Origin: Latrodectus hesperus | Taxonomy: Eukaryota; Arthropoda; Arachnida; Araneae; Theridiidae | Direction of reading: 5' to 3' | DNA: 64,000 nt | NCBI GenBank assembly: GCA_037975125.1 | Contig: CM075860.1 | Coordinates: 44,613,804 to 44,677,803 of the forward strand | In this document: piece by piece, positions 8,130 through 57,031 of the stretch | Layout of the letters: the number at the start of each line of letters is the position of its first letter | How positions within the stretch are numbered: the first letter of the stretch is position 1 | Translations under genes and position numbers: made by a program | Notes under the pieces: model-generated | Database searches by the model: none | Seen by the model: only the letters and a program-made list of their open reading frames with translations | What the model was told of the DNA's origin: nothing

Positions 8130-11100
8130 ATGTATATATTTATATATAAAGTCTAGAAACGTCCTTGCTAATATATAAGTATATATATAAATTTTGATAA
8201 TTTATTTTTATCAATTTAGCATTGTGCATTAGAGTCTGAAGTGTACTATGCTATTTTGAAAGCATAGGGCGTTTTTAATCTTTTCGTTATATGATTATTT
8301 CAGGAAGAATTTATTAGACATTTCATAAAAATATGCTGCAAAAGTATTGTGAACATCAAATAGGGAATTTGATCCTATTAAAAATTTGACTCAATGCAAC
8401 AGAAACGCCATAACTATATTTGTTTTCAGTAAAAAAAAAGTCGAACAAAAATTTATGACTGTATAAAATCGGAAATATAAAATAATAAAGAAAGATAATA
8501 AATACGTTACAAGTAACTTGCTCTTTAAACTTAATGAATATTACCTAAAACTCCTTGACGATACAGCCTCGGTGGTCCATGGCATACTGTGCCCATATTT
8601 GTTTTCTTGAGCGAGAAGTCCTGATAACCATTTATCCTAGCCTTTGTATATCACGGTTAAGTGGTAAACCTAACGCGAAACTCCCAGTGTTTAGTTCCCA
8701 AGCATGCTTGGTACTTAGTTTTATTGACCCACTGATGGGATGGAAGGCTGAGTCAACCTCACCCAGCCCGAAGACAGAGCCTCAAAGAATATTACCATAA
8801 ATATAAAATTATAAAATCATTTTAGGCTTCAGTTTAAAAGAAGAAAATTATAATAATCGTTCCTTATATCCCTTCGAATGCCTATGAATCGATTTGGTCA
8901 GCTGTATAGTCTTTTTTGCCTATGAAATCTAATTAGACTGGACCAATACAATTGTAAACGCCCGAGGTGGGAATTAAATCCACGAACTATTGAGCGAAAA
9001 ACCAAAGCGAATATAGACTGGGGTACAAGAAAAAATAATCTTAATAGCGGAATATGCAATGCATTTGAATGAAATTTGTAAAATGTAATAAAACTTTAAC
9101 TGAAATTTATTTAAAGCATAGTCTCTGAAGCCTATTATGCATCATGGAAAGACCACATTGTTCGGAGTGGGAAGTTCCGAGTTCAATCTCAACTACTGAA
9201 CAATGATGAATGTCAATTTCTTTTAGATATTACTAACATGTCTTTATAAAAGAACCGCATTATAATTGCATGATGCTGTGTTAGACTAAGTCAAGTGTCA
9301 ATTTTTAAATTTTATGATTTTCACACTTTTGTAAAAGGTATGTAATTTTGATGCCATAAAATGCTTTTAAATGCCAAAAACATTTTTGATAAGATGATTA
9401 CTACATTAGATTAATCGCAAATATTTATAGATATATAATTTCTAATATTTTTTTCTTTTACATACTCAATATTTAAAGATGTTTTCCATTTTTCTATTTG
9501 TGATAAATATGTCTCTTATTCAATATAGTATTTTGAAACATAGTCTAAATATTCAAACAACAATACAATTGAAAATCAGTTTGATATTAAATTAAAATTT
9601 CACAAAATCCATTCAGAGGAAAATATATTTTCCTGCATCATTCTGAATAAATGTAGCACTAAAAGTAATATGGAGAAAATATGATAATTCTTGGAAAGCA
9701 ATTGAGCTTATACCATAATTTGATGATAAGACCAAGCTGTTTGGAATAGAAGGTTCTCGGTTCTCTACTGGTCACTATTAATCAATAAGAAATTCAACAA
9801 CTTGAACCGATTATTTAAGATGTATTTACCGAACGACTATGAACATTGTCCAGCTTTTGAATCGCTTGATTGCCAATGTTAAGTTCACCTTTCAGTGAGT
9901 TCCATCGCATGTGTATGTGTACGGTGATGAAATTGCTGATCGTCTGACCAGAGAGGGCAGCCGTAAGGATACTGCTCATGGTGGCTGCCTAACTTTTTCA
10001 GAGATCGCTACCCGGGTCAGGCAAGATATCTGTTCTTCTTGGAAGAGAGCCCCCGTGCATGAATGGTATGCGGAAAATCGCCCTGCTGCTGTTATGATTG
10101 GGATTGTCAATAGGCGCGATCAGACAACTCTCGTGAGATTTCGAAGTGGACACACTCATGTACCACGTGATGTGACGGGCCACAAAGTCTATCCCCTGTG
10201 TCCAAAATGCAATGCGACTTAAACTGCTCCTGCCCACATTTTGACCTGCCTCAGTTTAATGAAAGAACCTATTCTGAAGCCTTAAGACTGTGCTCCATTG
10301 TTTTGAGGCGTTCAGGCTCATGGACAAGCTTGATGTTACTATCAGCCACAACAACAACATAAGATTGATTTGGGTTGTACTTTTTGCAATATACAATAAA
10401 CCCTAAAAAACGCTTTTCAATAATTTCAGTTGTGTGATCACAAAATAATTCATGAACATAGTTGACTTCTTGAAGCCTTGAGACTGTGCTCCATTGTTTG
10501 GAGGCGTTCGGGCTCATGGACATGCTTGATGTTACTATCAGCCACAACAACAACATAAGATTGATTTGGGTTGTACTTTTTGCAATATACAATAAACCCT
10601 AAAAAACGCTTTTCAATGATTTCAGTTGTGTGATCACAAAATAATTCATGAACATAGTTGACTTCTTGAAGCCTTGAGACTGTGCTCCATTGTTTGGAGG
10701 CGTTCGGGCTCATGGACATGCTTGATGTTACTATCAGCCACAACAACAACATAAGATTGATTTGGGTTGTACTTTTTGCAATATACAATAAACCCTAAAA
10801 AACGCTTTTCAATGATTTCAGTTGTGTGATCACAAAATAATTCATGAACATAGTTGACTTCTTGAAGCCTTGAGACTGTGCTCCATTGTTTGGAGGCGTT
10901 CGGGCTCATGGACATGCTTGATGTTACTATCAGCCACAACAACAACATAAGATTGATTTGGGTTGTACTTTTTGCAATATACAATAAACCCTAAAAAACG
11001 CTTTTCAATGATTTCAGTTGTGTGATCACAAAATAATTCATGAACATAGTTGACTTCTTGAAGCCTTGAGACTGTGCTCCATTGTTTGGAGGCGTTCGGG

Positions 11101-11752
11101 CTCATGGACATGCTTGATGTTACTATCAGCCACAACAACAACATAAGATTGATTTGGGTTGTACTTTTTGCAATATACAATAAACCCTAAAAAACGCTTT
11201 TCAATAATTTCAGTTGTGTGATCACAAAATAATTCATGAACATAGTTGACTTCTTGAAGCCTTGAGACTGTGCTCCATTGTTTGGAGGCGTTCGGGCTCA
11301 TGGACATGCTTGATGTTACTATCATCCACAACAACAACAACATAAGATTGATTTGGGTTGTACTTTTTGCAATATACAATAAACCCTAAAAAACGCTTTT
11401 CAATGATTTCAGTTGTGTGATCACAAAATAATTGATGAACGTAGTTGACTTCTTGAATATGAACTTACAAACATCACACAGAATATCTAAAAATGAGCAT
11501 TTAAGGTGTTTATTTTTAGAAGTCTTGCTTTGAACTTACCCAGTGAAACTGCTGAGTACGACGAAGGTCTTGAACACTTTGCTGCGTGTTGTGGGAGCTG
11601 AGACAATCTGCGGGACACCTGTCAGCATGGAGTTGGCCAGCATTTCCTTGCAGTACTCCTTCACATCGTTCTTCATGTCCTCCTTTCTCTCGGGAGACAC
11701 TTTGTTCTTGCGAAAGATCGGATAAGGTGTCCCGGCTCGATCAGGGCCCATT
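3140..11752 (-). CDS. DEG/ENaC (pickpocket-like) sodium channel, N-terminal part, four exons, gene continues off the window
   Basis: Exons 11752-11540, 7080-6958, 6567-6447 and 3273-3140 join in a single frame (phases 2, 2, 0) to 196 residues from Met at 11751. Residues 1-55 are a basic cytoplasmic N-terminus, about 58-85 form TM1 ([14 protein letters not shown] then [13 protein letters not shown]), and 98-109 are the family signature after TM1, [12 protein letters not shown]. Cysteine-rich extracellular sequence follows ([28 protein letters not shown]). The channel finger, thumb and TM2 are missing because the gene runs past position 1. DEG/ENaC subunits form trimeric amiloride-sensitive cation channels in the plasma membrane. 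Oddity: the gating HG motif of the N-terminus reads TG here (residues 44-45). Family identity is firm; the member is not assignable. Confidence 0.85.
3274..4288 (-). other. DEG/ENaC intron, AT-rich
   Basis: AT-rich sequence between the probable fourth exon and the TA tract. I see no exon, RNA gene or recognisable repeat. Confidence 0.5.
4291..4382. repeat. (TA)n microsatellite
   Basis: About 92 bp of pure TA, directly abutting the left end of the Tc1/mariner element; the final TA is the insertion target. Confidence 0.98.
4383..6316 (-). mobile_element. Tc1/mariner-superfamily (DD41D) DNA transposon with long terminal inverted repeats, 1934 bp
   Basis: Both ends begin CAGGGTGATTATAAAAAAAC and are flanked by TA (4381-4382, 6317-6318). 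The inverted repeats extend about 300 bp inward on each side (to roughly 4690 and 6015) with scattered mismatches, much longer than usual mariner ends. Between them a minus-strand transposase fills 5848-4769. The element sits in the DEG/ENaC intron, 131 bp below the exon ending at 6447. Confidence 0.92.
4769..5848 (-). pseudogene. DD41D Tc1/mariner transposase with two in-frame stop codons
   Basis: One frame runs from Met at 5848 to a stop at 4769, about 359 codons, broken only by TAG at 5485-5483 and by a TAG where the family has Trp, near 5325. The N-terminal helix-turn-helix domain ([37 protein letters not shown]) looks like the DUF4817 type. The catalytic triad is visible as [15 protein letters not shown] and [10 protein letters not shown]. 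Counting the residues between the second and third Asp gives 41. No frameshift is present, so the copy is young or recently inactivated. Confidence 0.88.
6447..6567 (-). CDS. DEG/ENaC extracellular exon
   Basis: The acceptor TTTGTTTCAG precedes 6567 and donor GTAAGT follows 6447. The 121 nt complete a shared glycine and give 40 residues with four cysteines ([20 protein letters not shown]), ending in Met at phase 0. It is assigned by frame continuity with the signature exon and by the cysteine pattern. Confidence 0.75.
6958..7080 (-). CDS. DEG/ENaC exon with end of TM1 and post-TM1 signature
   Basis: The acceptor TATTTTTGCAG precedes 7080 and donor GTAAGTGC follows 6958. The exon completes a glycine codon shared with the exon above and encodes [13 protein letters not shown], then YPTLVDLQ and [14 protein letters not shown], the best family match in the gene. 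Confidence 0.85.
7211..7743. mobile_element. Putative MITE, about 533 bp
   Basis: The left end TGGGTACTTTTCCATTCCGC and the right end (reverse complement TGGTACTTTTCCATATCGC) form imperfect inverted repeats of about 30 bp with one inserted G. The interior is non-coding and less AT-rich near both ends. The flanks are TA-rich, so the target duplication cannot be read. It lies 131 bp upstream of the DEG/ENaC signature exon. Confidence 0.5.
7977..8142. repeat. Compound (TA)n/(CA)n microsatellite
   Basis: TA, then CACACA, then more than 80 bp of TA and a degenerate TATG tail. Confidence 0.97.
8556..8786 (-). repeat. Family D SINE fragment
   Basis: The reverse complement aligns with the body of the 61149-61430 copy: TTCAGTGGGT-like block, AGCATGCTTGG, ACTAAACACTGGG, and the GGGCACAGT region. 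The tRNA head is missing. Confidence 0.6.
8787..9834. other. AT-rich DNA with eroded tRNA-like repeat remnants
   Basis: A weak family B remnant lies at about 8905-9005 (CTAATTAGAC, GAGGTGGGAATTAAATCCACGAAC). Two tRNA-box-like scraps occur near 9120-9215 (GAGTTCAATCTC) and 9710-9775. No gene is seen. Confidence 0.35.
9838..10262 (+). pseudogene. Non-LTR retrotransposon ORF2 C-terminus (RNase H end and zinc-knuckle region)
   Basis: The plus strand encodes KFTFQ, a stop where Trp is expected, then [17 protein letters not shown] (end of an RNase H domain), [31 protein letters not shown] and a Cys/His cluster [17 protein letters not shown]. The 5' end is truncated near 9838 and there are two in-frame stops. 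The frame resumes after a shift in the adjacent tandem array, which begins at 10275. Confidence 0.75.
10275..11453 (+). repeat. 196-bp tandem array, six units, derived from a retrotransposon 3' end
   Basis: Units start at 10275, 10471, 10667, 10863, 11059 and 11255; the last is 199 bp because of one extra ACA. Units 2-5 are almost identical. Each unit contains, on the plus strand, a short frame [20 protein letters not shown] continuing to a TAA about 43 codons on. This looks like the last residues of the ORF2 that ends just upstream, followed by 3' UTR with an AACAACAAC run. The array sits between that ORF2 fragment and the DEG/ENaC donor at 11540. Confidence 0.9.
11540..11752 (-). CDS. DEG/ENaC exon with N-terminus and start of TM1
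   Basis: The acceptor-like TTTTTTCTTTGCTTAAG lies one base before the ATG at 11751, and a consensus donor GTAAGT follows 11540. It encodes 70 residues plus two bases, including VKEYCKEML, the TGVPQIV segment and the first half of TM1. The Met may be the true start, with the acceptor joining a 5' UTR exon, or the reading frame could continue upstream. A tRNA-Ser SINE lies 58 bp upstream. Confidence 0.8.
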
Positions 11753-16180: not shown

Positions 16181-17338
<1,158 letters not shown>

Positions 17339-23055: not shown

Positions 23056-23061
23056 TTTATT
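23056..23061 (-). terminator. Poly(A) signal for the distal Cdc42 last exon
   Basis: AATAAA on the minus strand, 117 nt below the exon 4b stop codon, followed by a T-rich stretch that could act as the downstream element. It supports 4b being a genuine terminal exon. Confidence 0.5.
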
Positions 23062-23178: not shown

Positions 23179-23277
23179 CTAAAGCAGTGTGCATTTCCGG
23201 TTCCTGTGATGTCGCCGTTTTTTTGGAGGAGCCAAAACCGCCAAGATTGCTTCATCAAAAACATTTTTTAGTCCTTT
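23179..23277 (-). CDS. Cdc42: Cdc42 candidate distal alternative last exon, 4b (codons 163-194 and stop)
   Basis: Below an acceptor ATACCTATAG the sequence reads [18 protein letters not shown], then a strongly basic tail KKRRHHRNRK and a CaaX box CTLL, then TAG at 23181-23179. The first 18 residues match exon 4a at 16 positions. Seven codons differ only synonymously and two change the residue, the pattern of a coding exon under purifying selection rather than a decaying copy. It starts in phase 0 like 4a, so exon 3 can splice to either. No copies of exons 1-3 are seen nearby, so it is unlikely to be a separate gene. An AATAAA follows 117 nt below the stop. The AVLxPP motif and basic tail also recall Rac tails. 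Splicing to exon 3 is inferred, not observed. Confidence 0.8.
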   Translation of the reverse strand, partial: KGLKNVFDEAILAVLAPPKKRRHHRNRKCTLL

Positions 23278-23664
23278 CTATAGGTATAAATTTATAATCA
23301 ATGACTTAATAATAAGAAGTTTAAGCAAAAAATAGTATTCATTTCAAGCATTGTTAAGTAAAAATTAAAAAATGTATTGTTAATAAAGTGGATTTAATAA
23401 TATACTTTAATTTTGCTTATTTTAAAGTCTGCGCAAGAAATTTGCTAGTTCATTGGAAGCTTATTCTACTCTAATTATCTTGATAAAAGCACTTTTTTTT
23501 AATAATACCGTTTTTCTTAGCATTATCTCATTCTGTAATGTGGACAGCAAAATGTGAAACAAATGCAAATTGCTCACATTTTTTGTATCAGGTTTAGTAA
23601 ATATTCTATTGAAGTTTCATTACATATTTTTAAATACCCCAATATTGTTTTTAAGCACACACAT

Positions 23665-23921: not shown

Positions 23922-24066
23922 TTCTCTTCTTCTTCATTGGCCTGACAGCACAGGGTGGGCCTTTGCCTTCCTCAGAAGTGCATACCAAGACCCCTTATTT
24001 TTGGACAAGGTCATCCAGTTTGTCACTTTTAGTGTTTTCAGGTCGTTTTCAAGGCAGTCACGCCAT
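23922..24066 (-). mobile_element. RTE-like 3' fragment inserted in a microsatellite
   Basis: It carries the 3' end shared with 806-1285 ([30 protein letters not shown]-repeat tail on the plus strand). TA/TG repeats lie on both sides, so it landed inside a simple repeat. Confidence 0.8.
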
Positions 24067-24080
24067 TGTATATTTATATA

Positions 24081-24084
<4 letters not shown>

Positions 24085-24153
<69 letters not shown>
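24085..24153. repeat. (TG)n microsatellite
   Basis: About 68 bp TG followed by a short GA run. Confidence 0.97.
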
Positions 24154-24157
<4 letters not shown>

Positions 24158-24169
24158 AGAGAGAGTTTG

Positions 24170-24335
24170 GTTTTGTTTGTCGCTCAACGGTCATTTTTTG
24201 CAGACGAGGGCTAATTAGACCGGGACTTACGGCTTAAAGTGGATTCCGAACCATTACAAACATCCATGCCCAAGATAGGATTCGAACCCACGAACTATTG
24301 AACCGAAGGCAAGAGCGCAAGGTGCCAGCTCGGCG
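24170..24335 (-). repeat. Family B SINE
   Basis: The minus strand carries the B box GGGTTCGAATCC and the head CCGAGCTGGCA. The body ends with GACCGTTGAGCGACAAAC. A (GA)8-like run follows its head. Confidence 0.8.
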
Positions 24336-24479: not shown

Positions 24480-24880
24480 ATTAGGCCTCATGTGCAAAAA
24501 GAGATGACATTGTCACTCATCATTTGAACACAAAAACTTTAGGCACAGATGCCATATAATCCAGCATTCCAAATTCTGAGTTTGAGGATTTTTTGACGGA
24601 TTTTCTAGTTTTACTTGTAACCTGGGAGACTTGTAAGAATTATGTAGAAAATTCTATTTTAACAACCCAATTATTTACGTCATTGCAAGAGATCGAAATA
24701 CGTCATCTTGGTAACGTTTCTTCGTCACCAAAAAAATTCAGAATTTGGTATGCTGGGTTATACAGCATCTGTGCCAAACTTTTCGTCCACGTTACGTTTC
24801 TACCATTAATATAAAGAACTGAATTGTTATTGTGCAAAACTGAAAGAGATGGATCTCGAAAAATGACACTAACCAAGTAA
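24480..24880. repeat. Diverged inverted duplicate
   Basis: The plus-strand block GGCACAGATGCCATATAATC at 24542 reappears inverted near 24780 as GGCACAGATGCTGTATAACC, with homology over about 50 bp. It may be what is left of a larger inverted-repeat element. The open minus-strand frame 24703-24993 overlaps the right arm and is not recognised. Confidence 0.5.
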
Positions 24881-25021
24881 CTGACGGGACTCTCAAATTC
24901 AATATTTTGTTGAAATTTTCTATGACGCGTGTTTATTAGTATGAAATGACAGCCATAATAGGAAAATAGAAGTGTAAGTCCCAAAGATGCCACATTTTTG
25001 CCACTTGATTGAGAGGGATGA

Positions 25022-25063
25022 TAATAGTTGCTACAGTTGTAGCAATAACTGTAGCAACTATTA
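25022..25063. repeat. Perfect 17-bp inverted repeat with 8-nt spacer
   Basis: TAATAGTTGCTACAGTT, spacer GTAGCAAT, then its exact reverse complement. No annotated element around it. Confidence 0.95.
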
Positions 25064-25198
25064 AGCCTATTGAAACTTCATATGAAATCATCTGAATGTT
25101 TTATTTGAATGCATATAAATCTGAGATATTTGAAAAAATACTACAGTTTTCAGTGTCTAATCTAATGGATTTGAGCAAGAGAACATGAAGATACGAGA

Positions 25199-26248: not shown

Positions 26249-26542
26249 AACGGAGAGAAAAGTCTTCTGCAAATGTAATAAAATACTGAACATATACAAT
26301 CCATTTTAATTAAATAATACATATTACATAAAAATGTAAAAGTACTACGGCCGTATACAACAGCAAAGTCCCCTGTACCTATCCCAAGAAGGGTTCTACC
26401 AGTTTAGATGGGACTTGCTGGAAAGATGAAAAGAAAGTGGCACCACCGGGTCCCGCCCACGCAACGGAGCCACGCTCCAAAACGCAACAACTTCACACAC
26501 TAGTGGAGGGTACCCCTCAGCAGCCACTAGCGGTCCCTAATG

Positions 26543-26926
26543 GACTAGTTTTAGTGGTTGTGGCATCCATCTTCAATCCGGAAGGGTGGGGTTCAATTCC
26601 CAATGCCACCAAAGACCCACCGAGAACATGCGATATATATGCTCGTGAAATCTGTGGAATCAAAAGTCCTGTGATCGGTCTTTGAACAATTAACATGGGT
26701 ATAGTGGTCTGGAGAAAATTTCCTTCCCCACCAGATCAATGTCAAAATTGAGGGAGTGGATACTCTGGTGGTGCCATCTATTGGTGGAGTCTTAGAGCAA
26801 ATTCGTCCTTTCATCTTCATGGTGTTCTTGTTAAACGAATGACGCACTTTATTGACTTAAATTCATATAGCCTATAGCAAATCGAGCTTGGCTTTTCCGA
26901 ATGTCATAAGTAACAACAACACAAAA
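26543..26926 (+). repeat. Family A SINE, full-length copy
   Basis: A box GGACTAGTTTTAGTGGTTGTGGC, B box GGGTTCAATTCCC, and the full body to an AACAACAAC tail. It directly abuts the end of the Tigger pseudogene. Confidence 0.82.
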
Positions 26927-26935
26927 ATACTACTC

Positions 26936-28240
26936 TAAAAAAAGCATAATATAGATGTCTCTTTTGCCTTCTTTGGCTGTATACTTTCAACTTGCTTTTC
27001 AAGTTCATACACTTGCTCAAAACTATTAACATCAATATCTGCATCAGAAACGTATCTTTTTACAGTGTTTATTGTACAAACTACTTCTGCACAAATGAGC
27101 ACACAACTATCACCAATATCATCAAAATCATTATCACTGTCACTTTCTTTCTGAACTGAATTGATCAAACTTCCTACCGGCACTGTTTACGCAGTTTCAA
27201 ATTCATCGTTAAAATGGGGAAGTCCTTTACTTCATATGATCTATTTTCAATTTCTCTCATACAGTAATAAGAGCACTATCTTCTTCATCTTCTTCACTTA
27301 CTCCTGAACTCATAGCTTTGGAAGAAGCCAATTTTTTTAACTATTGTTTATGTTATGCGTTTTGAATGTCAGCGAGTCCTTCCCTGGGTCTATCAATCTC
27401 AATAATCTCTGCGCAACACTTTTTTTCTGTAAAAATTCTTGAAAACTTGGATTGTTTTTATATCCATTGGCTGAAAACTGCTCAAGTTAATTTTCTTTGG
27501 AACTGCAGAGCACTGATGAATAACTAAAATAATTCTTTTGTTTTGTAATCCCATCTTCGCATCAAGAGCATATATTTGCCTCTCAAATAGTCAGAAGTCA
27601 TCCAAGCTTCTATTATTGTCTCATATATTGTGGACACGTTTTTCCTATTTTTGAAGAATTGAGATTTCTTGAACTTATGCGTTTTAGGCCTCCAAACGTT
27701 ACTGTAAGCCTAAGCTTATTGTTTTCGCCCCCAATTTTGGCAGTTCTTGCTTTTAAACGTGAAAGTTTTGTTCAGAACACAAAAAATACTGTCAACTTAT
27801 ATCTATGCTGAAAATGTCCTGGGGTGAATACTCCTTCACCTTCCCCTGCTGCCATTCTTGAACACTTTCTTCTGGCGTAGCGAAACAGTCGCGGACAAGT
27901 TCTCAATGGAAAAGCTTATCTGCCACGTTTAAAGCCTTTTCAACAACACGTCACTCATGGGGATGCTCGAAACACGTGCCAACTCTGGAATCATCTTCAG
28001 AATTTCCTCAAACTTTACATACTTCGAATAGCTATAATATTTCCTCTTACAAAAACATCCACTTTTATTTACGTTTTTAACAGTTGAGTCCTTGTTCTTT
28101 ACTATCATGTTAGAGTGGATACCGATATCCCCAGCTTTTTAGCTAGCGCAACACGTGATTTTTCATGAACTTCAGCTTCCTTAAAACTTTCAATTTTTCT
28201 TGAATAGAAAGACTCATTCCCTTTCTTTTTTAAATTTTTT
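26936..28240 (-). pseudogene. Tigger/pogo-type (CENP-B/DDE) transposase pseudogene
   Basis: The minus strand, in broken frames, reads SIQEKLKVLRKL (helix-turn-helix start), FATPEESVQEWQQGK, QDIFSIDI (DDE start), ELPKLGAKTISLGL, KRIILVIHQCSAVPKKIN, QPMDIKTIQVFKNFYRKKVL and a C-terminal acidic section with TVKRYVSDADIDVNSFEQ. The order matches Tigger transposases (family knowledge). Many stops and frameshifts; dead. Terminal repeats were not identified. Confidence 0.65.

Positions 28241-39619: not shown

Positions 39620-57031
<17,412 letters not shown>

Follow-up and report, generated by a model that had tools for sequence, protein, structure and literature searches.

In the genome of the spider Latrodectus hesperus, the Cdc42 gene is followed on the same strand by a second segment resembling its last exon, which raises the question of whether this one gene encodes two forms of the GTPase that differ in their C-terminal tails. 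Here, we investigated this locus in a window of 64,000 nt (assembly GCA_037975125.1, contig CM075860.1, positions 44,613,804 to 44,677,803; coordinates below are those of the window). We consider it likely that the spider Cdc42 has a second coding last exon (23277-23179), referred to here as 4b, which exon 3 would join instead of the proximal exon 4a, thereby exchanging a tail of net charge +2 for one of +7 with no change in the predicted lipid.

Architecture of the gene and anatomy of exon 4b

All exons described here lie on the minus strand. A tblastn search with a Drosophila-type Cdc42 protein placed coding exon 1 (M1-T35) at 55859..55963 and exon 2 (V36-K96) at 48896..49078, both with 100% identity, and exon 3 (W97-Q162) at 45092..45289 with 92% identity; exon 1 ends in the donor ACT/gtgagt and exon 3 in the donor ACCCAG/gtaact at 45092. 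The proximal terminal exon 4a, located by tblastn and from its sequence at 39620..39709, encodes residues 163-191 and ends in a CRLL box. The distal terminal exon 4b, at 23179..23277 and thus about 16 kb away from 4a, was matched in the same search at E 1.9e-6, in the right order and on the right strand, and encodes residues 163-194 with the tail APPKKRRHHRNRKCTLL, a CTLL box and a TAG stop. The intron downstream of coding exon 1 also contains, about 760 bases after that exon, an RNase H-like fragment (55095-54724, minus strand) that scores 25.1 bits against a Pfam cut-off of 25.8.

The acceptor of 4b, CCTATAG/AAAGG, opens the exon with AAA GGA at residue 163, in phase 0 after exon 3. Since an in-frame TAG occupies the three bases just before this entry, the frame would be entered by splicing from a phase-0 donor like that of exon 3. 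The acceptors of 4a and 4b have the same phase and a single upstream donor, both exons start at K163, and each carries its own stop; judging by these junctions, the donor CAG/gtaact of exon 3 would serve either exon alike. In the acceptor region of 4b (23278..23297, ending in TATAG), 10 of the 16 positions from -20 to -5 are pyrimidines, which is also the count for 4a and exon 3, with 11/16 for exon 2. There was no sign of a weaker acceptor for 4b, its pyrimidine content being that of 4a, but the criterion is loose and of little weight, as 381 of the 3042 AGs on the minus strand of the window satisfy it.

The four codons that precede the stop read CRLL in 4a and CTLL in 4b, each with a basic region preceding, and the two products would comprise 191 and 194 aa, respectively. 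Past the stop of 4b by 117 nt, and followed by a T-rich stretch, lies an AATAAA (23056..23061, minus strand) that may act as its poly(A) signal; downstream of 4a, variant hexamers begin at 118 nt and the first AATAAA occurs at 734 nt, although signals of this kind are common in the AT-rich DNA here. When joined to the upstream exons, the 4b form has Cdc42 chains as its best PDB matches (E 1.3e-114 over residues 1-194) and matches Pfam Ras with 178 bits. Every element that the preliminary description had listed for this exon (minus-strand position, acceptor, phase 0, 16/18 residue match to 4a, stop, CTLL box and the nearby AATAAA) was found, and recomputation returned the two product sizes that it had given.

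No gene nested in the interval separating 4a from 4b was apparent. No stop-to-stop frame of at least 90 aa was present at 27.8-54.7 kb, and of four frames scanned at 23.5-27.8 kb, those at 24706-25077, 26332-26682 and 27533-27808 had no Pfam match at E 0.01. The frame at 23937-24233, a repeat frame rich in His codons, gave a weak Pfam match below the cut-off (ZrgA, E 0.005), and other frames at 23.5-24.2 kb run through AT/TG repeats. Elsewhere in the window there are two tandem arrays, one of 6.0 copies of a 196-base unit (10275-11457, 98% matches), whose minus-strand frames of 109-115 aa stay open across units, the single frame scanned giving no Pfam match, and one of 4.6 copies of a 112-base unit (1862-2380, 91% matches). 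Two transposase-like pieces were also seen, with a DUF4817 helix-turn-helix at 5902-5486 (minus strand) and a Mos1-type HTH_48 at 16389-16745 (plus strand).

Maintenance and origin of exon 4b

Exon 4b might be a relic of an incomplete tandem copying of the last exon, either unused or fallen out of use. In keeping with this, the last exon alone is duplicated within the window, and seven words specific to the 4b tail are absent from the 254 distinct proteins listed in our database searches (the best 120 of 779, 566 and 232 matches, at E 0.01). The database was clustered at 90% identity, so that full-length 4b forms would merge into 4a clusters; shorter queries of 98 aa (exon 3 plus 4b) and 49 aa were also used, but the 98 aa fragment and its 4a equivalent still agree at 88.8%, so that a clear separation is expected only for fragments shorter than this. 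As an argument against common expression of 4b, the absence is weak.

What speaks against a relic is that the frame, stop, CaaX box, acceptor and AATAAA of 4b are all intact, and that its codons have changed in the manner of a coding sequence. Exons 4a and 4b have 16 of 18 residues in common, and over the 54 shared nt they differ at 11 positions, 8 of them third positions, which amounts to 7 synonymous changes and two replacements (A176V and E178A) among the 18 codons, the same tally as in the preliminary description. When 11 changes were placed at random on 4a, at most two residue changes resulted with P values of 2e-5, 1.6e-4 and 4.8e-4 for kappa 1, 2 and 4, respectively. The NG86 estimates for the pair are a dS of 1.69, which is near saturation and carries a wide error, and a dN of 0.063, with dN/dS well below 1; Fisher's test on the underlying counts, fractional values being cut to whole numbers, gave P 2.5e-5.

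We also simulated the free decay of 4b, letting it evolve neutrally since the duplication from an ancestor equal to 4a while 4a was purified (kappa 2, 4000 runs, six divergences). The observed pattern, taken as at least 8 third-position differences, at most two residue changes and no stop, was reached by no more than 6 of the 4000 runs at any divergence (P at most 0.0015). With both exons under purifying selection, at least 8 third-position differences arose in 0.013, 0.26, 0.59 and 0.76 of the runs (n = 10, 20, 30 and 40). The codon pattern and the decay simulation together support the coding selection proposed earlier and indicate that 4b was most likely kept as a coding exon through most of its history, a conclusion drawn from 54 alignable nt with both branches pooled, the distal basic half of the 4b tail having no comparator. 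A recent loss of its use is possible, but an exon that has been a mere relic, or has become one, seems to us unlikely.

As for how 4b arose, comparison of the 4-kb neighbourhoods of the two exons returned the exon itself as the best match (40/48 nt). The second match is an AT-rich stretch of 35 nt (30/35, E 6e-5; 40622-40656 versus 23599-23633, same strand) whose distance upstream is 913 nt for 4a and 322 nt for 4b. It may be due to chance or may be a trace of a duplicated intron; the remaining flank matches are weaker, for example, a repeat match at E 0.009. With so little flank similarity beyond the exon, the duplicate looks old, and we infer that 4b arose when the terminal exon was duplicated in tandem long ago. 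A retrocopy origin was rejected, as 4b is not preceded by exon 3 sequence.

Tail properties and comparison with known tail swaps

CxxL boxes direct the addition of a geranylgeranyl anchor. Both spider tails are of the CxxL type with a single cysteine, and the same geranylgeranyl anchor is therefore predicted for the two; neither contains the second cysteine of a CCIF-type palmitoylation site. The parallel to the mammalian change of lipidation that had been hinted at for this pair consequently finds no support, and it is the polybasic charge that differs instead. Counted from the helix to the CaaX cysteine, the net charge of 4a is +2; that of 4b, which is without acidic residues at positions 178 and 181, is +7, with two histidines in addition. 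We compared these values with 246 database tails, namely those fitting the pattern among the 254 listed proteins, the 8 non-fitting ones being dropped; in this set, which over-represents relatives of the query and includes near-duplicates and Rac-like proteins, +2 is the commonest charge (130 tails), the mean is 2.5, and a single tail has +7, so that 4b equals the most basic among them. That single tail, QPPPKKPRRRRKCAIL, belongs to P0004, a divergent Cdc42-like protein of 193 aa from the limpet Patella vulgata, and is perhaps a parallel to 4b reached through gene instead of exon duplication.

Vertebrate CDC42 provides a known precedent for such an arrangement. Its two forms are reported to differ only in the last exon, with exon 6 used in brain and exon 7 ubiquitously (PMC10883850), the human forms diverge from residue 163, a K or R (PMC9868626), and the choice between the exons in mammals hinges on Ptbp1/2 activity and on a stronger acceptor of exon 7 (PMC4870516). 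The spider locus is alike in that one gene carries two coding last exons, with the split from residue 163 onwards and the membrane tail swapped. It is unlike the vertebrate gene in that the mammalian tails, a palmitoylated CCIF tail in brain set against CVLL, differ in lipid and in their basic region, whereas the spider tails have the same predicted lipid and lie five charges apart. Moreover, in the spider the ordinary-looking tail is proximal, and the two exons are 16 kb apart.

The residue 163 boundary common to spider and vertebrate could mean that the pair of last exons is ancient, going back to the ancestor of animals and sharing its descent with the vertebrate pair, and a tardigrade gene model points the same way. 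This model, P0001 of Hypsibius exemplaris, is Cdc42-like and holds two last-exon segments, the second ending in CRLL, which suggests tandem last exons in the tardigrade Cdc42 as well; unlike the spider gene, it is a predicted model of 316 aa that looks fused, and its tails are unrelated to 4b. However, the same intron would be expected as the starting point of any last-exon duplication, and a tail of the 4b type is absent from the 254 proteins listed. The second tails of spider and mammal are themselves unrelated, a polybasic CTLL tail in the former and CCIF in the mammalian brain form, and the order of exons differs, since exon 6 of the human gene, used in brain, lies before the ubiquitous exon 7, while it is the ordinary-looking tail that is proximal in the spider. 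Unrelated tails and a different exon order make an independent origin likely, and we regard common descent of the two pairs as quite improbable; it would alter the age of 4b and leave the mechanism the same, and the probabilities of the two readings overlap.

In mammalian Rac1, a strongly basic patch precedes a CaaX box whose final residue is L. The basic patch of 4b resembles that of Rac1 or KRAS4B, and the AVL.P motif at the end of its helix is Rac-like, which bears on whether 4b could be the last exon of another Rho gene with upstream exons elsewhere, or a capture from Rac. In KRAS, alternative fourth coding exons 4A and 4B swap the membrane-targeting tail, KRAS4B having a polybasic domain, and exon 4A is proposed by the authors of a preprint to derive from NRAS (PMC9882654). 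The spider case concerns a Rho and not a Ras protein, and the nearest relative of 4b is its own gene's 4a (43/54 nt identical) and not Rac (36/54), Rac being the sole Rho gene compared at the DNA level. At the protein level, 4b shares 15 of 18 residues with this genome's Rac, though 16 of 18 with 4a, so that its helix is closer to that of Cdc42, and the exons upstream of it are those of Cdc42.

We searched the 1.64 Gb genome for another owner of 4b. This genome contains 22 matches to the spidroin N-domain, which mark it as that of a spider; one of them agrees at 118 of 121 residues with PDB 2n3e, a Latrodectus hesperus entry, which points to a widow spider as the likely source. Exon 2 has a single full-length place with 100% identity, the 12 other matches being 37-73% identical save one of 87% over 23 residues, and the 95 aa query of exon 3 plus 4a has one place with 99% identity, the next whole match being Rac on C3 with 66% (14 matches). 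At E 10, the 4b peptide recovered its own exon along with Rac, 4a, a RhoU-like gene and a further weak match, five in all. The RhoU-like gene (L012), which we take to be of RhoU type judging by its tail, was considered as a relative of 4b and judged unrelated. No second near-identical exon 2 or 3 of Cdc42 was found among the best-scoring candidates, the searches being run exon by exon with the best candidates scored, a procedure by which a copy could be missed; with exons 2 and 3 and the 4b peptide each at one near-identical locus, no other Cdc42 gene emerged as the owner. The Rac locus (L010, 1327-1617) has a tail of its own, lying within one continuous frame of 96 codons that has no intron at the 162/163 position of Cdc42. 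The interval separating the two last exons of Cdc42 yielded no additional Rho-like exon in tblastn with Cdc42 at E 10. The origin of 4b in another Rho gene, which the preliminary description had named as what would overturn its reading, accordingly found no candidate among the best-scoring matches genome-wide, and we consider it very improbable.

A possible switch of tail charge and its implications

If 4b is a second last exon of Cdc42, the pre-mRNA would have two fates. Either 45092 would be joined to 39709 and the transcript would end after 4a, or 4a would be skipped, transcription would continue and 45092 would be joined to 23277; the latter would require transcription to proceed 16 kb past 4a, which we count against this reading. 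GGTase-I would prenylate both forms alike, and the 4a form would act as ordinary Cdc42. The KK and RR pairs in the tail of human Cdc42 are reported to bind gamma-COP and PIP2 (PMC9868626), and a much stronger basic patch would, by analogy, favour the plasma membrane. With its basic patch and its lack of acidic residues at 178 and 181, the 4b form would be expected to associate more tightly with plasma membrane rich in PIP2 or phosphatidylserine and to resist extraction better, so that the choice of exon would steer where one GTPase acts. The fuller proposal, a splice-controlled electrostatic switch on Cdc42 with two charges and one lipid, evolved in the spider independently of vertebrates, we put forward tentatively, at somewhat less than an even chance.

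Among the matches listed in our search of open-licence literature, no title or abstract opening mentioned an alternative last exon in Cdc42 of a spider or another arthropod. Across all 167 members of the RAS superfamily, one preprint reports alternative splicing at the C terminus in ten cases, KRAS among them, and gives distinct membrane-targeting tails for KRAS and CDC42 only (PMC9882654). A second tail-swap arrangement in Cdc42 would make convergent tail switching testable, and the spider pair, whose tails are predicted to differ in electrostatics only, would lend itself naturally to testing the effect of tail charge alone. If our reading is true, then, together with vertebrate CDC42, KRAS and perhaps the tardigrade Cdc42, it would make last-exon duplication at the residue-163 intron a recurrent route to retargeting a polarity GTPase.
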